From Streptomyces sp. NBC_00582 (GTDB lineage: Bacteria > Actinomycetota > Actinomycetes > Streptomycetales > Streptomycetaceae), in contig NZ_CP107772.1 of NCBI RefSeq assembly GCF_036345155.1, positions 3,472,001 through 3,536,000 on the forward strand: a DNA stretch of 64,000 bases, written 5' to 3'. Both the position numbers and the translations under genes were made by a program. The notes beneath the pieces are model-generated. The model ran no database searches and was not told the origin of the DNA. It worked only from the letters and a program-made list of their open reading frames with translations. Below, in pieces: positions 41,516 to 57,064 of this stretch; position 1 is the stretch's first letter, and every line of letters begins with the position of its first letter.

Positions 41516-41869
41516 GACCGCCGACCAGGACTTCCTCGCCGACTGCCGGACCCGGCTCGCCTTCGACCTCGTCACCCACACCTGGAACCCGGTGGTGATC
41601 CGGGCCCTGAAGGAGGGTCCGGCCCGCCCGGGTGAGCTGCGGGCGCGCATCGGCGGGATCAGCCCGAAGGTGCTGACCGAGGCCCTGCGCCGGCTGGAGT
41701 TCAACGGGTTGGTGGCACGGCGGGCGTACGGCGGGTCGCCGCCCCGGGTCGAGTACGCGCTCACCGGTCCGGGGCGGACACTGCTCGCCCCGAGGCCTTC
41801 GGCGCCTGGGCGCACGACCACGGCGACGAGGCGCTGGACGCGCAGGACCGCTACACCCGTGAGGTCTGA
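41516..41869 (+). pseudogene. HxlR-family regulator with a frameshift
   Basis: From ATG 41516 the frame encodes a typical HxlR winged-helix domain: CRTRLAFDLVTHTWNPVVIRAL, then GGISPKVLTEALRRLEFNGLVARR and YALTGPGRTLLAP. At about 41790 the frame breaks; the expected C-terminus (EAFGAWAHDHGDEALDAQD, then RYTREV and TGA at 41867-41869) is present in another frame. A loss of one or four bases at CTCGCCCCGAGG explains it. The read-through frame would run to 41906 into the sigma-factor gene. Either a real decay or an assembly error. The 135 bp upstream (41382-41515) hold no clear gene; a minus-strand frame there (LARAGLLEATAALLIRLWLG) may be a decayed divergent partner. Confidence 0.75.
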
Positions 41870-43557
41870 GCCACCGTCGCCGGGTCGGCCGGGGTGTCGC
41901 GGGTGACGTACTGCGGCACGGGGGTGTCGTCGCCCCCGGTGTCCCGGACCAGGCCGTAGCGCACCGCTCCCTCGGGCGGGCCGGTGACGATGTCTTTCTC
42001 CACGGCGTCCCAGGTGCTGGGGAAGACGCTGACGCCGTAGTCGGCGCCGCGTTCGTTCACGGTGAGGGTGACGCTGCCGTCGACGTAGAAGTACTCGTTC
42101 TGCCACATCTGCTGGGTGCCGGCGGGCAGGACGGTGTATCCGGTGGCCGCGCTGCCCATGCCGGTGGCGGTGGCGTCGGTGGTGCTCGTCGGGTCGTCCA
42201 TCCGGCGCCCGCCGCCCGAGGCGACGTGGAACAGCTTGCCCTTCAGGCCGGTCCAGGACGGCGGGACCAGGCTGCCGGACCGGTACCGCGGCGAGATCTG
42301 CCAGCGCACGAGGACATAGCCCCGGCCGCTGAGGGTGACCGCGTCCCCGCGGTGGTTCATGACGGCATGGGCGCCACCGGTGCTGGTGATGCCGGGCTCG
42401 GGCCGGTGCGGCAGGGCGCCGGGCGGGGTGTCGGGGTCGGGTGCCTTGTCGACGGCGTCGACGACACTGCCGTACTCCGCCTTCCTCGTCGCCGACGGGG
42501 ACGGGGAGGCGGAGGCGGACGCGGATGCCGACGGTGCGGCGGACGGGGTCGGGACCGGCGCGCGCCGCGGCCCGGCGGTGGTGGCCGCAGCCGTGGGGAC
42601 GGTGGTGGTGCGCGGCGGCGGGTCCTCGGGCGGGTGTACGGCGACGTAGACGCCGCCCGCCGCGAGGGTGGCGCCGGCCGTCACCGCGACGGCGGGCTTG
42701 GTCAGCGCGCCCAGCACCTTCGCGGACCAGCCGACGGAGGCGGAGCCCGTCACGGCCGCCGCGGTCTTGCCGCCGAGGCCGAGGGAGAGCGTGAAGCCGA
42801 CCGGGACGGGGACCAGCGCGATGCCGACGAGCAGCCGTTCCGCCGGGACGACGGTCTCGCGGGTGTCCCCGCAGTAGCCGCAGCCCCGGATGTGCCGGGC
42901 CAGCCGTTTGCGCCAGACGGAGTCGGGGCGGCCGTTCCAGCGGGCGGTCAGCTCGCGCAGGTCGGGGCAGGCGCCGTCGAGGGCGCGCACGATGCCCCGG
43001 GAGACCTCGAGGCGTTCCTTCACCCGCTGGACGCGCACGGCGGCGTGCTGCCGGCTGATGCCGACGGCGGCGGCGAGTTCGCGGCGGGTGAGTTCACCGG
43101 CGACCTCCAGCCACCACAGGGACAGCAGCTGACGGTCCTCGTCGTCCAGCCAGCGCACCGCCTCCGCGACCTCGCGCCGCTGACCCTCCAACTGGAGCCT
43201 GAGCACGGTGAGTTCGGCGAAGTCGGCGCTTCCCTCGGGGGCCGCGCTCTCGTCGAGGCGGGTGGCGGTCCTGCGGCGGGCCCGGTCGCGGATCTGCCGC
43301 ATGGCGATCGCCACCAGCCAGGGGCGGAAGCTGTCCGGGTCGCGCAGGGAGCCGAGGTTGTCGACGGCGCGCAGCATGGTCTCCTGGACGACGTCGTCCA
43401 CGTCGGCGTGGCCGTTCAGGGCGCGGCCGACGATGTTGTAGACCAGCGGCAGCCAGCCCGCGACCAGCTCGTCCAGGGCCTGGCGGTCGCCCGCCTGTGC
43501 GGCGGCGACGGTGGCCCGCCAGTGCCGCCCGGCCTCGGCGTCGGCGTACGTCCTCAT
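41851..43557 (-). CDS. ECF sigma factor fused to zinc-binding, transmembrane and extracellular domains
   Basis: A 568-residue protein. Residues 12-95 are sigma region 2 (ELVAGWLPLVYNIVGRAL, DDVVQETMLRAV) and 115-190 region 4 (LTRRELAAAVGISRQHAAVRVQRVKERL). Then comes a putative anti-sigma-like zinc motif H222-x3-C226-x2-C229 (HIRGCGYC), a transmembrane stretch near 286-307, a proline/serine/alanine linker (about 310-365), and an extracellular domain of roughly 190 residues (YVLVRWQISPRYRSGSLVPP). This matches C-terminally extended ECF groups in which sensing and sigma activity are one polypeptide. Its stop overlaps the end of the convergent HxlR remnant by 19 bp. Confidence 0.88.
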   Translation of the reverse strand: MRTYADAEAGRHWRATVAAAQAGDRQALDELVAGWLPLVYNIVGRALNGHADVDDVVQETMLRAVDNLGSLRDPDSFRPWLVAIAMRQIRDRARRRTATRLDESAAPEGSADFAELTVLRLQLEGQRREVAEAVRWLDDEDRQLLSLWWLEVAGELTRRELAAAVGISRQHAAVRVQRVKERLEVSRGIVRALDGACPDLRELTARWNGRPDSVWRKRLARHIRGCGYCGDTRETVVPAERLLVGIALVPVPVGFTLSLGLGGKTAAAVTGSASVGWSAKVLGALTKPAVAVTAGATLAAGGVYVAVHPPEDPPPRTTTVPTAAATTAGPRRAPVPTPSAAPSASASASASPSPSATRKAEYGSVVDAVDKAPDPDTPPGALPHRPEPGITSTGGAHAVMNHRGDAVTLSGRGYVLVRWQISPRYRSGSLVPPSWTGLKGKLFHVASGGGRRMDDPTSTTDATATGMGSAATGYTVLPAGTQQMWQNEYFYVDGSVTLTVNERGADYGVSVFPSTWDAVEKDIVTGPPEGAVRYGLVRDTGGDDTPVPQYVTRDTPADPATVAQTSRV

Positions 43558-47364: not shown

Positions 47365-50300
47365 TCACCTCAGCGGATCCTCCAGCGGCACGTTCCGCAC
47401 CCCCGGCAGATGCCCGTCCAGCTCCCCGGGCTCGAACCGGCACATGCCGACCGCGTGCCAGAACTCGCCGGTGACGTCGCCCTCGTACTTGTAGCCGCCG
47501 GAGGGCGCCAGCGCGGCCCAGCCGCCGGGCAGACCCACCAGGGTGGCGCGCAGGGCCGCCGGGCCGTCGGCCGGGACGTCCCAGAGGCGGACCGTGCCGT
47601 CCTCACCGCCGCTGGCCAGCAGGGAGCCGTCGGGACTGAAGGCGACCGCCAGCACCCGCCCGGTGTGACCGCTCAGCGCGGCCGTCTCCCGCCCGGTGTG
47701 CGCGTCCCACAGCCGGACCGTGCGGTCGTCGCCGGCCGTCGCCAGCAGCGGACGCAGCGGATGCGCCGCGGCCGTCCACAGCTTTCCGGTGTGACCGGAC
47801 AGCCGGTGCACGGCCACCCCGTCCCGCCAGATCACGGCGTCCCCGTCCCAGGCGGCACTGGCCAGCCAGGAGCCGTCGGCGGCGAACGCCACCGCGTACA
47901 CCCGGTCGGTGTGGCCGTCGAGGACCGCGGTGATCCGGCGCTCCTCCAGGTCCCAGACGCGCACCCGGCGGTCGTCGCAGCCGGTGGCGAGGGCCCGCCC
48001 GTCCGCCCGGAAGGCGATGGAGCGGACCCGCCCGAAGTGCTCGCCGATGGTGACGACATGGGCGCCGGTGGCCCGGTACCAGAGGCGGACGGTGTCGTCG
48101 TCGTTGGCGGTGGCGAGCAGATCGCCGTCGGGGCTGAACGCCTCGGCCCAGACGTGGTCGGTCTCCGCGTCCATCTCCCGCTGGTACTCGCCCGTCGAGG
48201 CGTTCCACAGATACAGGTCGCCGTCGCTGCTCGCGGTGGCGAGGAGAGTGCCGCCGGGGCTGAACACGGCCGAGACCAGCCGGTCGCTCTGCCCGGTCAG
48301 CTCCCGAAGCCGCTGTCCGGTATGGGAGTTCCACAGCCGGATCACGCCGTCGTTGCCGCCCGCCGCGAGGATCGAGCCGTCGGAGCTGAAGGACAGCGTG
48401 CCGATCTTCCGGCCGTGGCCGCGCAGGATGCGCCGGCCCTGGCTGGTGGCGGGGTCGTGGAGCCGGACCACCCCGTCGTTGCCGCCGGTGACGAGGAGGG
48501 GCCCGGTGTCCGGGGCGGGGGCGTCGCCGTGCGGGCGGAACTTGCAGACCCAGACCGAGCCCCGGTGCTCGGCGGGCTGCCGGGTGAGCGGGACGGCCAC
48601 CGGGTCCGCGCCCGGCTCGATCCGCCAGAGCCGGACCACGCCCTGGCTGTCCCCGGCGGCGAGCAGGGCGCCGTCCGGGTCGAAGAGCACCTGGTACACG
48701 GCGCCCCGGCAGCCGCCGAGCAGCCCGGCGCCGGTCCCCTCGGCCAGGTCCCACAGCCGCACCTCCCCCTCGGTGTCGCCGCTCACCAGGTAACGGCCGC
48801 CGGGGTGGAAGTCGAGGGTGTAGACCCGGCCGGTGTGCCCGGTGAACTCGTGCCGGAGGCTGCGGTCGGCGACGTTCCAGATCCGGACCGTGCCGCCCTG
48901 CCGCTCGTCGCCGCGGTCACCGGTGGCCAGCAGCGAGCCGTCCGGGCTGAACCGCGCCCGGTACACCGCGCTCTGGTGGCCCGGCAGCTCACCGGCCCAC
49001 CGCCCGGTCGTGAGGTCCCACAGCCGTACGGACGTGGAGGCGTCCCCGGTGACCAGGGTCGTCCCACCGGGTGCGAAGGCCACGGTGTAGACGGGCGCGA
49101 AGTGGCCGGGCAGCCGGTGCAGCGGGGTGCCCGAGGCGGTGTCCCAGACGGTGACCACACCCTCGGCGTCCCCGGTGGCCAGCAGCGAGCCGTCGGCGTC
49201 CGGGGCGACGGGCCACACCCCGCGCGGATGGATGTCCAGCACCTGCAGACAGCGCCCGGACACCGGGTCCCACAGGCGCACGGTCCCGTCGGCGCTGCCG
49301 GTCGCGAGGACCCGCTGCCGGAACTTGACGGCGTAGACGCGGTCGGTGTGCCCCTCCAGGGTGCGCAGGGCGGTGCCGGTGGCCGCGTCGCAGACCAGCA
49401 CCCCGCCGTCCTCGGCGCCGACGGCGAGGAGTTCGCCGTCGGGGCTGTAGGAGATCGGTTCGGGCAGTCGGCTGGTGCGCATGTCGAAGCCGTACGGCAC
49501 CCCCACCGCCGAGGGCCGGAAGCCGGAGTCGACGGCCATACCGGGGGCGAGGGCGGCGGCGGCAAGCTCGGGCGCCCGCAGCAGCCCCTGCTCGGCGGTG
49601 GCGGTGACCAGGGCGGCGCGCTGCCAGCGGCCCCCCTCGACCCGGGCGCCGGTCAGGTCGGTGCGGATGAGCCGGGCCCGGCGCAGGTCGGCGCCGCGCA
49701 GATCGGCGTCGGAGAGGTCGGCGCCGTCGAGCCGGGCGCCGGTCAGCCGGGCGTCGCGCAGGACCGCGCCGGCGAGGTTGGCGCCGACCAGCCGGGCGTC
49801 GGTGAGGTCGGCGCGGGTGAGGTCGACGCCGGAGAAGTCGCGGTAGGAGAGGTCCTCCCCGGCGAGCGCGGCCCCGCGCAGATCGGTGTGGGCGGGCACC
49901 CGCAGCCGGGAGAGGATCTTCACGGCGTTGGCGCGGGCCACCTCGTCCTCGCCGCCGTCGAGTGTGCGCTCGGCCCATGCCTGGCAGGCACGGTGGTCGG
50001 CGAGGTCGCACAGGAACTCCACGGCGAGCTGACTGAGGCGGCGCCGGGCGAGCAGCGCGCTGTCCCCGGCGAGAAGCCGGTTCGCGCACTCACGGGCGAT
50101 GAGCCACTCCACGACCGAGCCGTGGATGAACCGGAACACCCCGTCGTCGCTGCGCACCAGCAGGGTGCCGGAGCCGACGGCGTGGGCGGCCTGCCCCGGG
50201 GAGAGCCGGCCGGCGGCGAGTCCGGTGAGGGTCTCGGCCACATCGGTGAGCTCGTCGAGCCGCAACGACTCCTGGCCGGTCTGCCACAGCCTGAGGGCGA

Positions 50301-53148
50301 GCGCGGTGACCGCGTTCCAGAGCTGGTCGAGGCCGAGTCCGGGGGTGCGGCCGGGGCCGCCGCTCGCCCGCTGCTGCTCGTACGTCAGCCAGGCGGTGAG
50401 GACCTCTTGGTAGAGCCCGGCGGGGCTGAGGGCCCGGCCGGCCCCGGCGACCGCGCGCAGCTGGTCGTCGTCGAGGTCGGCGACGAAGCCGAGGAGGCGG
50501 GGGTTGCGGCACAGGGCGAGCAGGTCGGGGATGGCGTCGAGCAGGCGGACGCGGCGGTCGGCGGCGCGTTCGTCGCCGTCGTAGCGGTTGACCAGGTAGG
50601 CGCGTATCTGCTGCGGGGTGAACTCCTGGACGGCGAGGACACGGCGGTGCGGGAGCATGCCGACGCGTTCGCCCAGGGCGGTCAGGACCTGGCCCTGGGA
50701 GCGGAAGTGCTGGGTGCGGCTGCTGACGACGATCTTGGCGCTGTCCACGGCGGAGTCCAGCAGCACCTGGAGGCGTTCGGCGGCGCGGTCGTACGTCACG
50801 CGGGTGACGAGCTCGTCGAAGCCGTCGAACAGGAGCACGATCCGGCCCTGCTGGAGCATGTACCGGAAGGCGCGCAGGTCGATGTTGTCGACGCCGTGCG
50901 CGGCGAGGTGGGCGGCGACCAGGCCCTCGAAGGAGTAGGCGCGGTCGAGGGCGTTCAGCTCGACCAGCAGCGGGACGAGGTGCGGCAGTTCGGCGGGGAT
51001 ACGGCGGGCCAGCTCGCGCAGCGCGAACGTCTTGCCGTGGCCGAAGTCGCCGAGCAGCAGCAGGAAGCGGCCCTGGTCGGAGTCGAGGAGGCGGAGCATC
51101 GCGTCGACCAGGCCGTCGCGGTCCTCGGCGTCGAGCCGCTCGACCTCCCGGTAGCGCTGCGGCAGGTACATGCCCGGGGGATAGCGGGGGTCGGTGCGCA
51201 GGCGTTCGCTCTGGGCGCCGACGTAGGCGCGCAGGTCGAGCAGGCCCTGGAACTCGGTGAAGCTGCGCACCCGTACGCCCCGGCGGCGGGCCAGGTCCCT
51301 GAGCTCGCGGGCGGGCGGGGGGCCGTCGTGGACGAGTTCGGCCTCGGTCTCGGAGTCGGCGGCGTGGACGAGGGCGACGACCCGGTCGACGTCCTGGGCG
51401 GTGGGGGTGCCGGTGTGGACGGCGACGCGCTGCTGACGGACGAAGCCCGACTGGGTCCAGGTGACGAGGAGTTGGGGCACGGGTCCGTCGACGGGGCGGA
51501 TCTGGGCGCCCTCGTGCCGGGTGCGGCAGACCTCGGCGACCCGGGCGAGCAGTATCTCGGCCGGGGACTGCACGGCGCGCGGCTCGGGGTCGGGCGTGCG
51601 GACCGTCTCCGGGTCGGCGGCGGTGGGGTCGGTGGGGCCGAAGGCGCGGTGGGCGCGGCGCCACTCGAGACGGTCCTGGCGTGGTTCACCGGGTCCCGGC
51701 CAGGTCGCGAGTCCGTCCCGGCCGATGCGCAGGAGCTGGTGCCGGGCGGGTCCGGCGACGCCGAGCAGGGGCACTTCGCCGGCGGCGGTGGTCAGCAGGG
51801 GGCGGGCGCCGGGTCCGGCGGGGCCGTGCAGCAGCAGATGGAGGCGGGGGGCGGTCAGGCGGGCCAGGACGTCCGTGTCGCGCAGGGGGCCGGAGCCGTT
51901 CTGGGCGGCCGTGCGCAGGACGCCCTGCGGGACGGTGCCGGGGGCGTGGCGCAGGGCGCCGATCCGCAGCCAGCCCTCCTGCTCGTACGGCCGCAGGGCC
52001 TGCGCGAACCAGGCGGCCTGCTCCCGGCCGACCAGGCCGTACTGGTCGTCGAGCCGGTGGCTGTACGCCATGGAGGAGTTGAGGCCGGCGACGACGGTGT
52101 GCAGTTCGGGCACCGGGAACAGGGTCCAGGGCTGGTCGCTGTCGAAGACGGCGTCGAGGCCCTGGTAGAGCTCCTGGAAGACGCGGGCGAAGTGGCGCCA
52201 CTTGGGCCAGTAGGGCGGCCGGGGCGGCATCTCGTCGGCCTCGCAGGTGCTGAAGTAGGCGCGGCAGGCGGCCTGGTTGACGTCGTGGCCGCCGGGCACG
52301 AGGGCGACGCGGTGCGGTTCGAGGCCGAGCAGGGCGCGCAGTCCGGTGAGGAAGGCGAGCGCCTGGTCGAACTCGCGGGGGCTGCCGGAGGCGGTGAGGT
52401 CGCCGGTGACGACCAGCAGGTCCGGGGAGGGGGCGCCCGCGTCGGTGAGCTCGACGAGGTCGCCCCAGATCGCCGCCTGGAGTTCGGCCGGGTCCTGGCC
52501 GCGCCCGAAGACGGGCCCGGCCAGGTGGAGCACGGTGACCGCGTCTCGGACCGCCGGGTCGCCGTCGGTGCGCGGGTAGGCGGGCGGGGCCGGGGGTCTG
52601 CGGCGGCCGGCCCAGCCGAGTCCGCCGAGCGGGCGGCCGGGCGGGGGTGCCACCGGTACGACCGGTGCGGGCGCCGCGGGCTGTCCCTCCCCCGGGTAGC
52701 CGGGCCGCAGACTGGGGCGGGCCCGTCCGTCGAGGGCCTGCCGGACCCGGGTGAGCAGCAGGTCGCGGGCGGCGGCCGGATCGGTCACCGGGACGAGGTC
52801 GACGTAGGTGATGGTGGCGAGGAGTCCCTCCACGGGGATGTCCTCGACGCGGACGGTGATCAGCCGGCGCTCGGGCACGTCCGGGTCGGCGCGCAGGGCG
52901 GCCTGCCACTCCATCCGGCCGTACCTCGACCGCTCGTAGTTCCTGGACAGTACGGCGATGACGGCCGCGGACTCGCTCACCCCCCGGTCCATGAAGTCCA
53001 CGAAGTTCGTGCCCGGCACGAAGTCCCAGGCCTGCAGGACGGTCCGGTAGCCGGCCTCCTCCAGGGTCCAGGCGATCCAGGACGCCCAGCGCTCGTCGGC
53101 GGGCGAGTAACTGACGAAGAAGTCCAACGGCCCGGTGTTCCCGGTCAT
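47365..53148 (-). CDS. TIR - degenerate calcineurin-like - NACHT - pentapeptide - WD40 NLR-like protein
   Basis: A 1927-residue protein. Residues about 8-125 are a TIR domain (DFFVSYSPADERWASWI; Glu80 in RMEWQAAL is the candidate catalytic residue). A proline-rich linker leads to a calcineurin-like region (about 205-480) that keeps VVTGDLTASG and a GGHD box but has lost the DxH motif. A domain of unknown type (about 570-660) precedes a NACHT/STAND NTPase with Walker A GDFGHGKT (Lys706) and Walker B LLFDGFDEL (Asp775). Pentapeptide repeats (about 1095-1165) and some fifteen WD40 repeats (about 1225-1860) follow. ATG 53148 is preferred because GGGGGA lies just upstream. Likely a sensor-effector protein for defence or signalling; no partner gene is needed by the architecture. 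Confidence 0.9.
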   Translation of the reverse strand: MTGNTGPLDFFVSYSPADERWASWIAWTLEEAGYRTVLQAWDFVPGTNFVDFMDRGVSESAAVIAVLSRNYERSRYGRMEWQAALRADPDVPERRLITVRVEDIPVEGLLATITYVDLVPVTDPAAARDLLLTRVRQALDGRARPSLRPGYPGEGQPAAPAPVVPVAPPPGRPLGGLGWAGRRRPPAPPAYPRTDGDPAVRDAVTVLHLAGPVFGRGQDPAELQAAIWGDLVELTDAGAPSPDLLVVTGDLTASGSPREFDQALAFLTGLRALLGLEPHRVALVPGGHDVNQAACRAYFSTCEADEMPPRPPYWPKWRHFARVFQELYQGLDAVFDSDQPWTLFPVPELHTVVAGLNSSMAYSHRLDDQYGLVGREQAAWFAQALRPYEQEGWLRIGALRHAPGTVPQGVLRTAAQNGSGPLRDTDVLARLTAPRLHLLLHGPAGPGARPLLTTAAGEVPLLGVAGPARHQLLRIGRDGLATWPGPGEPRQDRLEWRRAHRAFGPTDPTAADPETVRTPDPEPRAVQSPAEILLARVAEVCRTRHEGAQIRPVDGPVPQLLVTWTQSGFVRQQRVAVHTGTPTAQDVDRVVALVHAADSETEAELVHDGPPPARELRDLARRRGVRVRSFTEFQGLLDLRAYVGAQSERLRTDPRYPPGMYLPQRYREVERLDAEDRDGLVDAMLRLLDSDQGRFLLLLGDFGHGKTFALRELARRIPAELPHLVPLLVELNALDRAYSFEGLVAAHLAAHGVDNIDLRAFRYMLQQGRIVLLFDGFDELVTRVTYDRAAERLQVLLDSAVDSAKIVVSSRTQHFRSQGQVLTALGERVGMLPHRRVLAVQEFTPQQIRAYLVNRYDGDERAADRRVRLLDAIPDLLALCRNPRLLGFVADLDDDQLRAVAGAGRALSPAGLYQEVLTAWLTYEQQRASGGPGRTPGLGLDQLWNAVTALALRLWQTGQESLRLDELTDVAETLTGLAAGRLSPGQAAHAVGSGTLLVRSDDGVFRFIHGSVVEWLIARECANRLLAGDSALLARRRLSQLAVEFLCDLADHRACQAWAERTLDGGEDEVARANAVKILSRLRVPAHTDLRGAALAGEDLSYRDFSGVDLTRADLTDARLVGANLAGAVLRDARLTGARLDGADLSDADLRGADLRRARLIRTDLTGARVEGGRWQRAALVTATAEQGLLRAPELAAAALAPGMAVDSGFRPSAVGVPYGFDMRTSRLPEPISYSPDGELLAVGAEDGGVLVCDAATGTALRTLEGHTDRVYAVKFRQRVLATGSADGTVRLWDPVSGRCLQVLDIHPRGVWPVAPDADGSLLATGDAEGVVTVWDTASGTPLHRLPGHFAPVYTVAFAPGGTTLVTGDASTSVRLWDLTTGRWAGELPGHQSAVYRARFSPDGSLLATGDRGDERQGGTVRIWNVADRSLRHEFTGHTGRVYTLDFHPGGRYLVSGDTEGEVRLWDLAEGTGAGLLGGCRGAVYQVLFDPDGALLAAGDSQGVVRLWRIEPGADPVAVPLTRQPAEHRGSVWVCKFRPHGDAPAPDTGPLLVTGGNDGVVRLHDPATSQGRRILRGHGRKIGTLSFSSDGSILAAGGNDGVIRLWNSHTGQRLRELTGQSDRLVSAVFSPGGTLLATASSDGDLYLWNASTGEYQREMDAETDHVWAEAFSPDGDLLATANDDDTVRLWYRATGAHVVTIGEHFGRVRSIAFRADGRALATGCDDRRVRVWDLEERRITAVLDGHTDRVYAVAFAADGSWLASAAWDGDAVIWRDGVAVHRLSGHTGKLWTAAAHPLRPLLATAGDDRTVRLWDAHTGRETAALSGHTGRVLAVAFSPDGSLLASGGEDGTVRLWDVPADGPAALRATLVGLPGGWAALAPSGGYKYEGDVTGEFWHAVGMCRFEPGELDGHLPGVRNVPLEDPLR

Positions 53149-53255
53149 CTGACGGTCCCCCATGTATTCATGATGCAATGGACGAGCGCCGTTTTGGACT
53201 GATTTCACGCCAACCCCCTGGTCACACGGGAGCACACCTGTGCGACCCTTCCCCC

Positions 53256-54548
53256 GTGTCTGTCTTACGGCGTCTGCATGTACTGGACCGGGTGGCGGTC
53301 GCCCTGCTCGCGACCGGACTGCTGTGCGTGGCCTCGGGCTTGCTGCCGGCCGCCGACGCGGGGGACGCGATGCGCCGGATCGCCCCCTTGCTGGCGTTCC
53401 TCGGCACCGTGATCGTGCTGGCCGAACTCACCAGCAGGGCGGAGGTGTTCGATGTGGTGGCGGCGAGCGTGGCCCGGGCGGGCCGGGGCAGCTACCCCCT
53501 CCTCTTCCTGCTGTGCGTGGCCTTCGCGTCGATCACGACGATCTCGCTGAACCTGGACACGACGGCGGTGCTGCTGACGCCGGTGATGCTGGCGCTGGCC
53601 GGCCGGGTGGGCATCGCGGCGGTCCCGCTCGCCATGACGACGGTCTGGCTGGCCAACACCGCGAGCCTCCTGCTGCCCGTCTCCAATCTGACGAACCTCC
53701 TGGCCGCGGACCGGGTGGCCCTGTCCTCCCTGGGCCTGGCCGGCCGGATGTGGGCCGCGCAGCTCGCGGCGATCGCGGTGACGACGGCGTGTCTGTGGGG
53801 CTTCTTCTGGCGCCGGGGCCGACGAGCGCCCACCGCGAGGCCCAGCCCGGGCGCCGGCCCGGGGGCGGCACGGGTGGAGCACCCGCGGGCAAAGGCGCCA
53901 CGGGCCGACGCCGGGCGGACCGGCGCGGCGGCCGATCGGTATGTGCCGCCCGGTGCCCACCGGCCCGCCGACCCCGTGGTGTTCCGGGCCTGTGCGGTGG
54001 CCTGTGGGGGGTTTCTGCTGGCCATCCTGGTCGCGGACGTGGAGCTGTGGGTGGCGTCGGCGACGGCCGCGGCGGTGGCCGTCGTGGCGTTCGCCGCGCG
54101 GGAGCGGGCGGCGCTGCGCTGGTCCCTGGTGCCGTGGCGGCTGCTGGTGATGGTGCCCGGGATGTTCCTGGTGGTGGAGACGGTCAACGCCCACGGACTG
54201 CATGCGCTGCTCTCCTCGGCGGTCGGGCACGACGGCGGCACCCTGGGCCTGTTCCGCGCCGCGGCGGTCGGCGCCGGGCTGTCCAACGTCCTGAACAACC
54301 TGCCCGTCTATCTGGCGGGCGAGGGCGCGGTCCCGGTGGGCAACCACGACCAGCTCCTCGCCCTGCTGATCGGCACCAACGCCGGTCCGGTGATCACCCC
54401 GTGGGCCTCCCTGGCGACCCTGCTCTGGTACGAGCGCTGCGTCGCGTACGGCGTACGGGTGCCGGTGGCCCGGCTGATGGGCACGGGCGCGGTGCTGGCG
54501 GTCAGCGCGGTCGCGGCGTCGGTGACAGCGCTGGCGCTGACGCGGTAG
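53256..54548 (+). CDS. ArsB/NhaD (ion transporter) superfamily membrane protein
   Basis: A 430-residue transporter (456 if the in-frame ATG at 53178 is used) with about ten to eleven helices and two homologous halves, each with a re-entrant asparagine/threonine signature: ITTISLNLDTTAVLLTPV and LSNVLNNLPVYLAG, as in arsenite/Na+/dicarboxylate-type carriers. A cytoplasmic loop rich in arginine, proline and alanine (about residues 190-240) joins the halves. Substrate unknown. It is divergent from the large TIR-NACHT gene and its end overlaps the convergent phosphatase gene by 47 bp. Confidence 0.82.
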   Translation: MSVLRRLHVLDRVAVALLATGLLCVASGLLPAADAGDAMRRIAPLLAFLGTVIVLAELTSRAEVFDVVAASVARAGRGSYPLLFLLCVAFASITTISLNLDTTAVLLTPVMLALAGRVGIAAVPLAMTTVWLANTASLLLPVSNLTNLLAADRVALSSLGLAGRMWAAQLAAIAVTTACLWGFFWRRGRRAPTARPSPGAGPGAARVEHPRAKAPRADAGRTGAAADRYVPPGAHRPADPVVFRACAVACGGFLLAILVADVELWVASATAAAVAVVAFAARERAALRWSLVPWRLLVMVPGMFLVVETVNAHGLHALLSSAVGHDGGTLGLFRAAAVGAGLSNVLNNLPVYLAGEGAVPVGNHDQLLALLIGTNAGPVITPWASLATLLWYERCVAYGVRVPVARLMGTGAVLAVSAVAASVTALALTR

Positions 54549-55386
54549 CCGCGGCCGGGCCGGCCACCAGGTCCAGCAGGTGGGGCAGCAGCTCGGGGCG
54601 GGCGGCGACGAAGGAGCGGTCCGTGTCCGGGCCGGTGAAGGACGCCGGGAAGTCGCGGCCGTCCAGGTGGCACAGGCGCACCCCGGCCTCGCGGGCGAGG
54701 AGGGCGCCGCCCGGCAGGTCGATCGCCTCGGCGCGGTAGCCGACGAAGCCGTCGATGTCGCCCCGGGCGAGCATGGCCCAGGCGACCAGGGGCGCCCAGA
54801 GCTGGAGCAGGCGGCGGGAGCGCAGTTCGAGGGTGTGGCGCAGGGCGCGGGCAACGGGGTCGTCACGGCGGACCGCGTGGCCCTGGGTCCAGGCGAGGAG
54901 GGGTCCGGCGGGGGCTGCCGGGCGGGGGGCGGGAGCGAGCGGGCCGTCGGGGCCGCGGGCGCCGGTGCCGTGCACGGCCGACCAGGTCCGGCCGGTCAGC
55001 GGCTCGTGCACGACCCCGACGACGGGCAGCGCGTCGACGCACAGGGCGATGCCGACGACGTAGACGGGCAGCCCGATCACCACGTTGTTGCTGCCGTCGA
55101 GGGGGTCGACCAGCCAGGTCCGGCGGCCGCCGTCCCCGGCCGCCGCGTCGCCCGTCTCCTCCGCGAGGATCCGGTCGTACGGGAAGTCCTCCCGGATCCG
55201 GTCGACGACCAGCCGTTCGGCCAGCAGGTCCAGGTCGGTGACGACATCGCCGTTCGCTCCCTTGGGCCGGGCCGCGAAGCCGTCCGGGAAGCGGGAGCGC
55301 AGCAGCGCCCCCGCGGCCTCGGCGGCCGCCACCGCCGTACGGCACTCCCGGGTGCGGTCAGCCGGCGGGCGGGGGTTCGGGCTCAT
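54502..55386 (-). CDS. Inositol monophosphatase family protein
   Basis: A 294-residue Mg2+-dependent phosphatase: GDVVTDLDLLAERLVVDRI, ILAEETGD, the metal motif WLVDPLDGSNN and C-terminal GYRAEAIDLPGGALLAREAG. Family members hydrolyse inositol phosphates, fructose-1,6-bisphosphate, histidinol phosphate or 3'-phosphoadenosine nucleotides. ATG 55386 overlaps the upstream cupin-like gene by 29 bp, so the two are translationally linked. The C-terminal 16 or so residues overlap the transporter on the other strand. Confidence 0.88.
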   Translation of the reverse strand: MSPNPRPPADRTRECRTAVAAAEAAGALLRSRFPDGFAARPKGANGDVVTDLDLLAERLVVDRIREDFPYDRILAEETGDAAAGDGGRRTWLVDPLDGSNNVVIGLPVYVVGIALCVDALPVVGVVHEPLTGRTWSAVHGTGARGPDGPLAPAPRPAAPAGPLLAWTQGHAVRRDDPVARALRHTLELRSRRLLQLWAPLVAWAMLARGDIDGFVGYRAEAIDLPGGALLAREAGVRLCHLDGRDFPASFTGPDTDRSFVAARPELLPHLLDLVAGPAAATASAPALSPTPRPR

Positions 55387-56095: not shown

Positions 56096-57064
56096 TCAGC
56101 CGCGGTAGGGGTCCTCCGCGCGCAGCGCCTTGTCGACGATCTCGCCCACGTCGCGGTCGGTGAAGCTGGACGGCAGGGGCACCCCGAGCCGGTCCATCAG
56201 GCGTCTGACCTCGTCCACGGTGGGTTCGTCGCCGAGCTCGGTCGCCTCCCGCAGATCGAGCTTGACGGCCTGCTCGCGGCTCTGGTGCAACTCGGTGACG
56301 TAGTAGTCGTACAAGGGCCGGTCCCGCTCCACGCAGAGGCTGACGCGGCGCGGGTCGTCCTGGGTGATGATCAGGCAGGTGTCGGAGAGGTCGAAGCGCA
56401 GCGCGGGGGCCACCGAGCTCAGGTGCACGTCGATCTCCAGAGTGTCCAGCCGCTGCCGGTGCCAGACGGCGGCCAGGACGGTGGCGTACGACTCCTTGCG
56501 GGTGCGTTCCGTGGTCCAGCCGCCGGTGCCGTCGTGGCCGAAGGTGCGGCGGAAGCGGGCGTAGGCCTCGCAGACCCGGTCGTCGGCCGGGTTGACGATG
56601 TCGATCTTCATGCTGAGGGCGCGGCGCTGCCGCTGGGCCTCCAGGACGCACTGGGGCAGGGTGACGGCCCGCAGATAGGTGCCGGTGCCGCCCTTGAACA
56701 CCCACCGGGCCGTGGTGCGGCGGGCCTGTTCGTGGGCGAGGGTCACCTCGGGTCCGGCGAGGCTGCGCACCATGGCCAGGTCCTCGATCGCCCGGCCGGT
56801 CGCGGCGGTGGCGGCTCTGATGTCGGCCATCCGGCGTCGGCGCTCGGTCAGCGAGCCGTACACCAGGGCGGCCAGCACGAGCAGGATGGACCCGGTGACG
56901 ACGTTGTTGTCCCGGTCGAAGTCCTGGTCGGTGATGTCCAGCAGACCCACCGTCAGGGCGACGCCGATGGCGACGACCCCGTCCGCGTTGCGGACCGCCC
57001 AGGCGATCGAGTCCTCCAGCCGGCGTCCCGGCCGCTGCGGTTCGCTGCGCGACACGTCCCCCAC
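56096..57064 (-). CDS. Membrane protein of unknown function
   Basis: A 322-residue protein with two predicted membrane helices near the N-terminus (GVVAIGVALTVGLLDI at about 29-44 and VVTGSILLVLAALVYGSL at about 55-72) and a large cytoplasmic remainder without recognised motifs (for example KIDIVNPADDRVCEAYARF). The cytoplasmic segment has mixed alpha/beta character and many charged residues; it could bind a nucleotide or lipid. First gene of a probable operon with the cupin-like and phosphatase genes. Confidence 0.65.
   Translation of the reverse strand: MGDVSRSEPQRPGRRLEDSIAWAVRNADGVVAIGVALTVGLLDITDQDFDRDNNVVTGSILLVLAALVYGSLTERRRRMADIRAATAATGRAIEDLAMVRSLAGPEVTLAHEQARRTTARWVFKGGTGTYLRAVTLPQCVLEAQRQRRALSMKIDIVNPADDRVCEAYARFRRTFGHDGTGGWTTERTRKESYATVLAAVWHRQRLDTLEIDVHLSSVAPALRFDLSDTCLIITQDDPRRVSLCVERDRPLYDYYVTELHQSREQAVKLDLREATELGDEPTVDEVRRLMDRLGVPLPSSFTDRDVGEIVDKALRAEDPYRG

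Follow-up and report, generated by a model that had tools for sequence, protein, structure and literature searches.

A giant TIR-NACHT-WD40 protein and four recurrent partner genes in Streptomyces: a candidate NLR-like conflict module

Is a giant Streptomyces protein that unites a TIR domain, a NACHT switch and a WD40 array an immune sensor, and do the genes beside it belong to the same system? The question is raised by a gene of Streptomyces sp. NBC_00582, located in a stretch of 64,000 nucleotides which is here called the window (contig NZ_CP107772.1 of RefSeq assembly GCF_036345155.1, positions 3,472,001 to 3,536,000). An earlier note on this DNA had suggested a candidate defence sensor. 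We see about an even chance that the protein, here termed the giant, is a STAND switch of NLR type that forms the core of a conflict module with five genes. The effector-NACHT-sensor layout, the intact TIR domain, apparently dead enzyme parts and a pair of partner genes with relatives on plasmids together point to a conflict system. Of the earlier proposal, the domain layout, the unbroken motifs of TIR and NACHT and the dead phosphoesterase were confirmed, and all of these are conserved; however, it had not connected the four partner genes to the giant, and the defence role is still putative.

The chain described in that note (TIR, phosphoesterase, NACHT, pentapeptide repeats, WD40) is borne out by Pfam matches (Table 1) and by long homologues. 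A search with residues 1-700 gave 586 proteins, the best 120 of which, including the window protein, were analysed as listed orthologues. All but one (119) exceed 1800 amino acids (aa), and named sources among them are Streptomyces, Kitasatospora, Embleya and Streptoverticillium. The effector, which has a TIR fold, is N-terminal (residues 10-129), and the WD40 repeats are found C-terminal of NACHT. Glu80, a residue number given correctly before, is at the position of the catalytic glutamate of TIR NADases. It is present in 120 of 120 listed orthologues and in all 74 covered among 80 named loci. The Walker A and B motifs are intact, as had been claimed: Lys706 (again correctly numbered), Asp775 and Glu779 each occur in 119 of the 120 orthologues, and the Walker lysine in all 80 named loci.

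The phosphoesterase part has a different fate. Active calcineurin-like phosphoesterases carry the metal-ligand motif set DxH, GD, GNHD, H and GHxH, and the giant lacks part of this set. The loss of DxH (LAGPVFG) and the replacement of GNHD by GGHD were found where the earlier note had placed them, and they extend to the relatives. All 120 orthologues read AGPxFG where SDLHFG is expected, so that the Asp of motif I is lost in every one of them, as it is in 80 of 80 named loci. GNHD is mostly replaced (N persists in 5 and H in 10 of the 120 orthologues) and GHxH is degraded as well, both in the orthologues and in the named loci. GD is retained in 120 of 120 orthologues and 72 of 80 named loci, and His401 is invariant in the orthologues.

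The stretch of some 100 residues in front of NACHT, which had been left as not recognised, matches NA-iREase3 (PF22739) with 138.2 bits, compared to a Pfam gathering score of 27. Going by the Pfam name, it is predicted to be an inactive restriction-endonuclease fold; a Foldseek comparison gave a weak match to MspJI (1.4e-3).

Measured against the window protein across 118 orthologues, TIR has a mean identity of 0.914 and NACHT one of 0.864; the pseudo-phosphoesterase follows with 0.798, NA-iREase3 with 0.783 and WD40 with about 0.745, and the two linkers flanking the pseudo-phosphoesterase reach 0.49-0.58. For nine near pairs, omega (the ratio of nonsynonymous to synonymous substitution rates, dN/dS) is 0.15-0.26 over the whole gene, with 0.00-0.10 for TIR, 0.02-0.12 for NACHT, 0.12-0.19 for the pseudo-phosphoesterase and 0.19-0.30 for WD40. 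The pentapeptide stretch is the loosest (0.21-0.52). Three more distant pairs (L062, L065, L071) have whole-gene values of 0.34-0.52, for which dS is probably underestimated in these GC-rich codons. The pseudo-phosphoesterase is thus still held by selection, even though its metal motif has been lost. The WD40 array is under purifying, not diversifying, selection on average, and the idea of a hypervariable WD40 sensor was not supported by its averages of identity and omega.

The conserved unit is larger than the giant gene and reaches to about position 57064, covering four partners: a permease, a phosphatase, a cupin-like protein and a protein with two transmembrane segments (two-TM protein). 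A scan with one genome per species gave 223 relatives, of which the best 80 were kept. Of these best 80 loci, 73 have at least 1.5 kb upstream, and each of the 73 carries the ArsB/CitMHS-type permease head to head with the giant. When the best 80 were pooled with 29 PF22739 and Streptomyces loci and 12 duplicates were removed, 97 loci remained, 76 of them with at least 6.5 kb upstream. The same order of two-TM protein, cupin-like protein, phosphatase and permease was found in 67 of these 76 distinct loci. Among the nine exceptions, four lack the two-TM protein alone, two have only the permease, and three from bacterial family f18 differ. In two Micromonospora-like loci (L076 and L187), the permease is the only one of the four partners seen beside the giant.

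Among 200 Streptomyces species, a phosphatase orthologue (identity at least 58%) occurs in exactly the same 13 genomes as the giant. In the 187 giant-less genomes the best phosphatase match has an E-value of 1.2e-27 or weaker (those listed have 35-42% identity) and one genome has none; the co-occurrence gives a Fisher value of 1e-20 with kinship ignored. From the 80 named loci, 41 that fall into eight tree clades chosen by hand were compared for their surroundings, over about 5 kb on each side with the first 4.3 kb upstream left out. Genes outside the block are common to 3 of 725 cross-clade locus pairs and to 42 of 95 within-clade pairs. Full order in most loci, co-occurrence, changed surroundings and a tree that follows bacterial families give the block the look of an old unit that is kept or lost whole and has different surroundings in different clades.

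A palindrome (GCACAGGTGTGC, window positions 53232-53243) lies between the giant and permease genes. The dyad GCAC-N3-5-GTGC was found upstream of the giant in 23 of 85 distinct loci (25 of 97 with duplicate loci included, versus 3.6 expected by shuffling). It is nearly confined to one Streptomyces clade and was not adopted as a part of the module.

The membrane segments of the two-TM protein are at residues 27-45 and 55-73 by hydropathy. It has 558 homologues, and the 120 of these that are listed are named hypothetical or uncharacterized at most, with a Pfam domain in none of them. Pfam matches of the protein itself are scattered and weak, none being convincing, and profile searches of the PDB gave no match for either the two-TM or the cupin-like protein. 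In the cupin-like protein, the histidines of HPLGF and HxHSW are invariant in the alignment, and Cupin_2 is weakly matched in 3 of 15 members. On plasmids of Rhodococcus opacus and Methylobacterium (L206:4737-6273 and L207:4677-6228), distant relatives of the two proteins adjoin in the same order, with a recombinase and a ParA gene within about 5 kb. The two-TM relatives were matched with 2e-9 and 6e-6 by tblastn (Methylobacterium with 2.2e-15 by hhalign), the cupin-like relatives with 3e-7 and 1.8e-12 by hhalign, the latter two being single-pair values. A search with the Rhodococcus relative of the two-TM protein gave 7 proteins, itself included. The two partners can thus exist without the giant, on plasmids, and this plasmid-borne unit is possibly a stand-alone effector-regulator pair.

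Table 1. The giant gene, the domains of its product and the four partner genes (window positions).
Feature	Position	Strand	Evidence or remark
Giant TIR - pseudo-phosphoesterase - NA-iREase3 - NACHT - pentapeptide - WD40 protein, 1927 aa	47365..53148	minus	start possibly ATG 53163
TIR domain, predicted NADase, residues 10-129	52762..53121	minus	PF13676 (TIR_2) 8.8e-35; model confidence (pLDDT) 87
Calcineurin-like (Rv0805-type) pseudo-phosphoesterase, residues 204-460	51769..52539	minus	Metallophos 1.3e-5; motif I Asp and His lost
NA-iREase3, residues 532-639	51232..51555	minus	PF22739 2.5e-40
NACHT NTPase, residues 695-853	50590..51066	minus	PF05729 1.7e-10; Walker A and B intact
Pentapeptide repeats, residues about 1096-1169	49642..49863	minus	PF00805 7.5e-22
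WD40 array, putative sensor, 14 stretches, residues about 1227-1857	47578..49470	minus	Pfam
ArsB/CitMHS-type permease, divergent from giant	53292..54548 (start up to 53178 possible)	plus	PF03600 (CitMHS) 7.8e-32, PF02040 (ArsB) 2.2e-17
Inositol-monophosphatase-family protein, predicted phosphatase	54502..55332	minus	PF00459 (Inositol_P) 2.8e-37
Cupin-like protein, 220 aa	55358..56020	minus	HPLGF and HxHSW motifs; conserved in block
Two-TM protein with undescribed soluble domain (FKGGTGTYLRAVTLP), 322 aa	56096..57064	minus	alignment, hydropathy

The giant gene is spanned by a 1956-codon open frame on the minus strand that begins at GTG 53235. A start at ATG 53148 yields 1927 aa, and the database copy has the MGDRQ start at ATG 53163. 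The G+C content at the three codon positions (78/53/95%) identifies the gene as coding, and an antiparallel frame of 1930 aa on the plus strand opposite the giant has the pattern of a shadow frame. In L064 and L077, frames of 2669-2670 aa read through upstream of TIR, which is probably due to GC-rich open frame alone, with no longer protein behind it. No second copy of the N-terminal half was found in the own genome, in which the further matches concern the pentapeptide and WD40 parts. Six more NACHT-like matches occur there besides the giant, four of them above the Pfam cut-off. Elsewhere in the window (41851-43557, minus strand), a 568-aa protein combines sigma-70 region 2 with a long C-terminal part that has no assignment.

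The count of 13 in 200 Streptomyces species excludes six further matches (E-values of 5e-5 to 9e-4) as partial. It rejects the idea of a housekeeping gene of all streptomycetes, which the 120 close orthologues had first hinted at and which the earlier note had named as a case that would speak against its proposal. One of the 13 genomes (locus L067) has the giant gene in two pieces, as overlapping frames of 845 and 1363 aa, and its block is perhaps decaying.

The wider NA-iREase3 family accounts for 61 PF22739 hits in 37 of 394 Actinomycetes genomes, with a maximum of five in a single draft genome of family f18, and for none in 14 control genomes. We compared 60 family loci (48 of the 61 hits and 12 Streptomyces loci), one of which has no readable core. 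Among the 59 readable loci, 42 have TIR and phosphoesterase, 13 have TIR without phosphoesterase, 3 have phosphoesterase without TIR, and 1 has NACHT alone in a broken gene. Where both are seen in relatives, NA-iREase3 precedes NACHT. In a tree of this core, all 30 rows from the block neighbourhood fall to one side of a branch supported 100/100; the same applies to Streptomycetaceae (100/100) and to f18 (100/98), while Streptosporangiaceae and Micromonosporaceae are each interrupted by a single nested row. The phosphoesterase motifs are fullest (SDxQFG, GD, GNHD, HH, GHxH) in L096, L100, L105 and L106. All four read DxQ, and a full DxH is found in none of them; the three that were tested match the DS9_1 model with 6.8e-30 to 7.2e-28, the window protein with 1.7e-15. 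The notion that the phosphoesterase is intact only without TIR was rejected, as three of the four carry TIR. In L091, TIR is absent, yet the phosphoesterase is degraded.

If the giant is a STAND switch, the WD40 array, alone or together with the pentapeptide stretch, would sense a conserved trigger. NACHT would then bind ATP and oligomerise, and the clustered TIRs would cleave NAD+, which may either empty the cell or make a nucleotide signal. Between TIR and NACHT, the dead phosphoesterase and the restriction-endonuclease-like fold may serve for ligand binding or docking. The two-TM protein would be the likeliest membrane partner effector with the cupin-like protein as its regulator, and permease and phosphatase may handle a small anion or a phosphorylated product. 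Phages are a putative target. A more specific version is rather unlikely in all its details: an undescribed actinomycete immune module of NLR type with five genes, in which assembly through WD40 and NACHT would activate TIR, and the nucleotide that TIR makes from NAD would bind either to the pseudo-phosphoesterase or to the two-TM protein, the latter opening as a membrane effector. The cupin-like protein would restrain it, phosphatase and permease would clear or move the signal, and the two-TM and cupin-like proteins would be a new effector-regulator pair that is also used alone on plasmids.

Several observations weigh against a conflict system. The giant was found in 0 of 50,697 phage records, a pattern scan confirmed it in no viral contig, and no genuine plasmid record searched carries it. 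One record of the plasmid collection (NZ_LT559118.1 from Nonomuraea, 11.85 Mb) covers 80% of residues 1-690 and looks like a chromosome; the other plasmid matches listed concern the TIR part alone. Both plasmids with the stand-alone pair were typed as non-mobilizable. The core tree follows bacterial families, which suggests long vertical inheritance. Unlike a fast-changing sensor, the WD40 array, although the least conserved folded part, is only slightly below its neighbours (0.745 versus 0.753-0.798). PADLOC-DB 2.0.0 gave no specific match for the giant but seven partial ones (best bSEFIR, 2.5e-9, residues 9-72), and no match at E 0.1 for the four partners. The giant is not known to have a phage phenotype or to cleave NAD, and permease and phosphatase fit a metabolic role as well.

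Much of this would also be expected from a physiological switch, which we consider a somewhat less probable but serious alternative. The STAND protein would sense a metabolite or stress, TIR chemistry would control a transport-and-phosphatase unit, and the patchy presence would reflect an optional nutrient or stress niche. The permease that adjoins the giant wherever there is room upstream (73 of 73), the phosphatase that co-occurs in 13 of 13 genomes, purifying selection on average in all domains, the congruent tree and the absence from the phages and genuine plasmids searched are all in line with it. However, a Pfam search of six pieces of the giant gave no significant DNA-binding output domain (25 of 71 families among the matches listed); the best candidate, HTH_TANC1, at the spot where STAND proteins carry a winged helix, stayed below the cut-off (E 0.042). 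A TIR with an intact Glu80 would be costly for routine regulation, the effector domains are shuffled in relatives outside the block, and the block surroundings differ between clades.

The TIR domain might instead be a docking platform that does not cleave NAD, with output only from a partner such as the two-TM protein. The best PDB sequence matches of TIR include the scaffold TIRs of TLRs and MyD88, and the two-TM protein is conserved next door. We nevertheless regard this as improbable: the glutamate is invariant in the block clade, the five Glu-less TIRs among 118 distinct ones of the wider family (113 have it) are all outside the block, and the fold matches include the NADases SARM1, AbTir and SPARTA. 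That giant and neighbours are unrelated genes which merely stayed together is very improbable, since, although cross-genome co-occurrence was tested directly for the phosphatase only, related strains are not independent and one or more partners are missing nearby in 9 of 76 loci, the full order is kept in the other 67 while outside genes hardly persist across clades (3 of 725 pairs), and a phosphatase orthologue occurs in 0 of 187 giant-less genomes.

How does a conflict module of this kind relate to known systems? According to the passages on bNACHT antiphage proteins in PMC12169576, these have an N-terminal effector, a central NACHT and a C-terminal sensor region. The giant shares this layout, but compared with the proteins in those passages it adds TIR, two apparently dead enzyme folds, WD40 and four recurrent partner genes. 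NCBIfam models of antiphage NACHT proteins match it weakly (EruA 9.7e-4, HyoA 0.13). The best curated NCBIfam match of its phosphoesterase part is the DS9_1 anti-phage phosphoesterase (NF053862, 1.7e-15), but with 56.9 bits it stays below the cut-off of 420, motif I is lost and the domain is embedded in a STAND protein. Rv0805-type phosphodiesterases differ from the giant, which is without the Asp and His of motif I and has degraded GNHD and GHxH. As a NA-iREase3 protein, the giant is marked by TIR and a pseudo-phosphoesterase upstream and by its place in a gene block. TIR, calcineurin-like phosphoesterase, NACHT and inactive enzyme domains recur in the conflict systems of multicellular bacteria treated by Aravind and co-workers (PMC7159879, PMC8195603); these parts are shared, but the passages concerned do not describe the domain order and gene block of the giant. 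In searches of an open-licence library, none of the titles and abstract starts listed deals with this architecture or block.

In the NLRs of plants and animals, a sensor is coupled to TIR or to another effector. As a candidate NLR-like switch, the giant would be a bacterial counterpart in which two apparently dead enzyme folds are stacked between the effector and the switch. Because it has four recurrent partners, what a bacterial NLR is wired to downstream can be studied one gene at a time. Our results suggest that some bacterial NLR-like proteins are long-lived, held by purifying selection in defined blocks, and not only fast-turnover genes of islands. The compact five-gene unit, which some soil bacteria apparently have or lack in its entirety, suggests a new kind of self-protection system.
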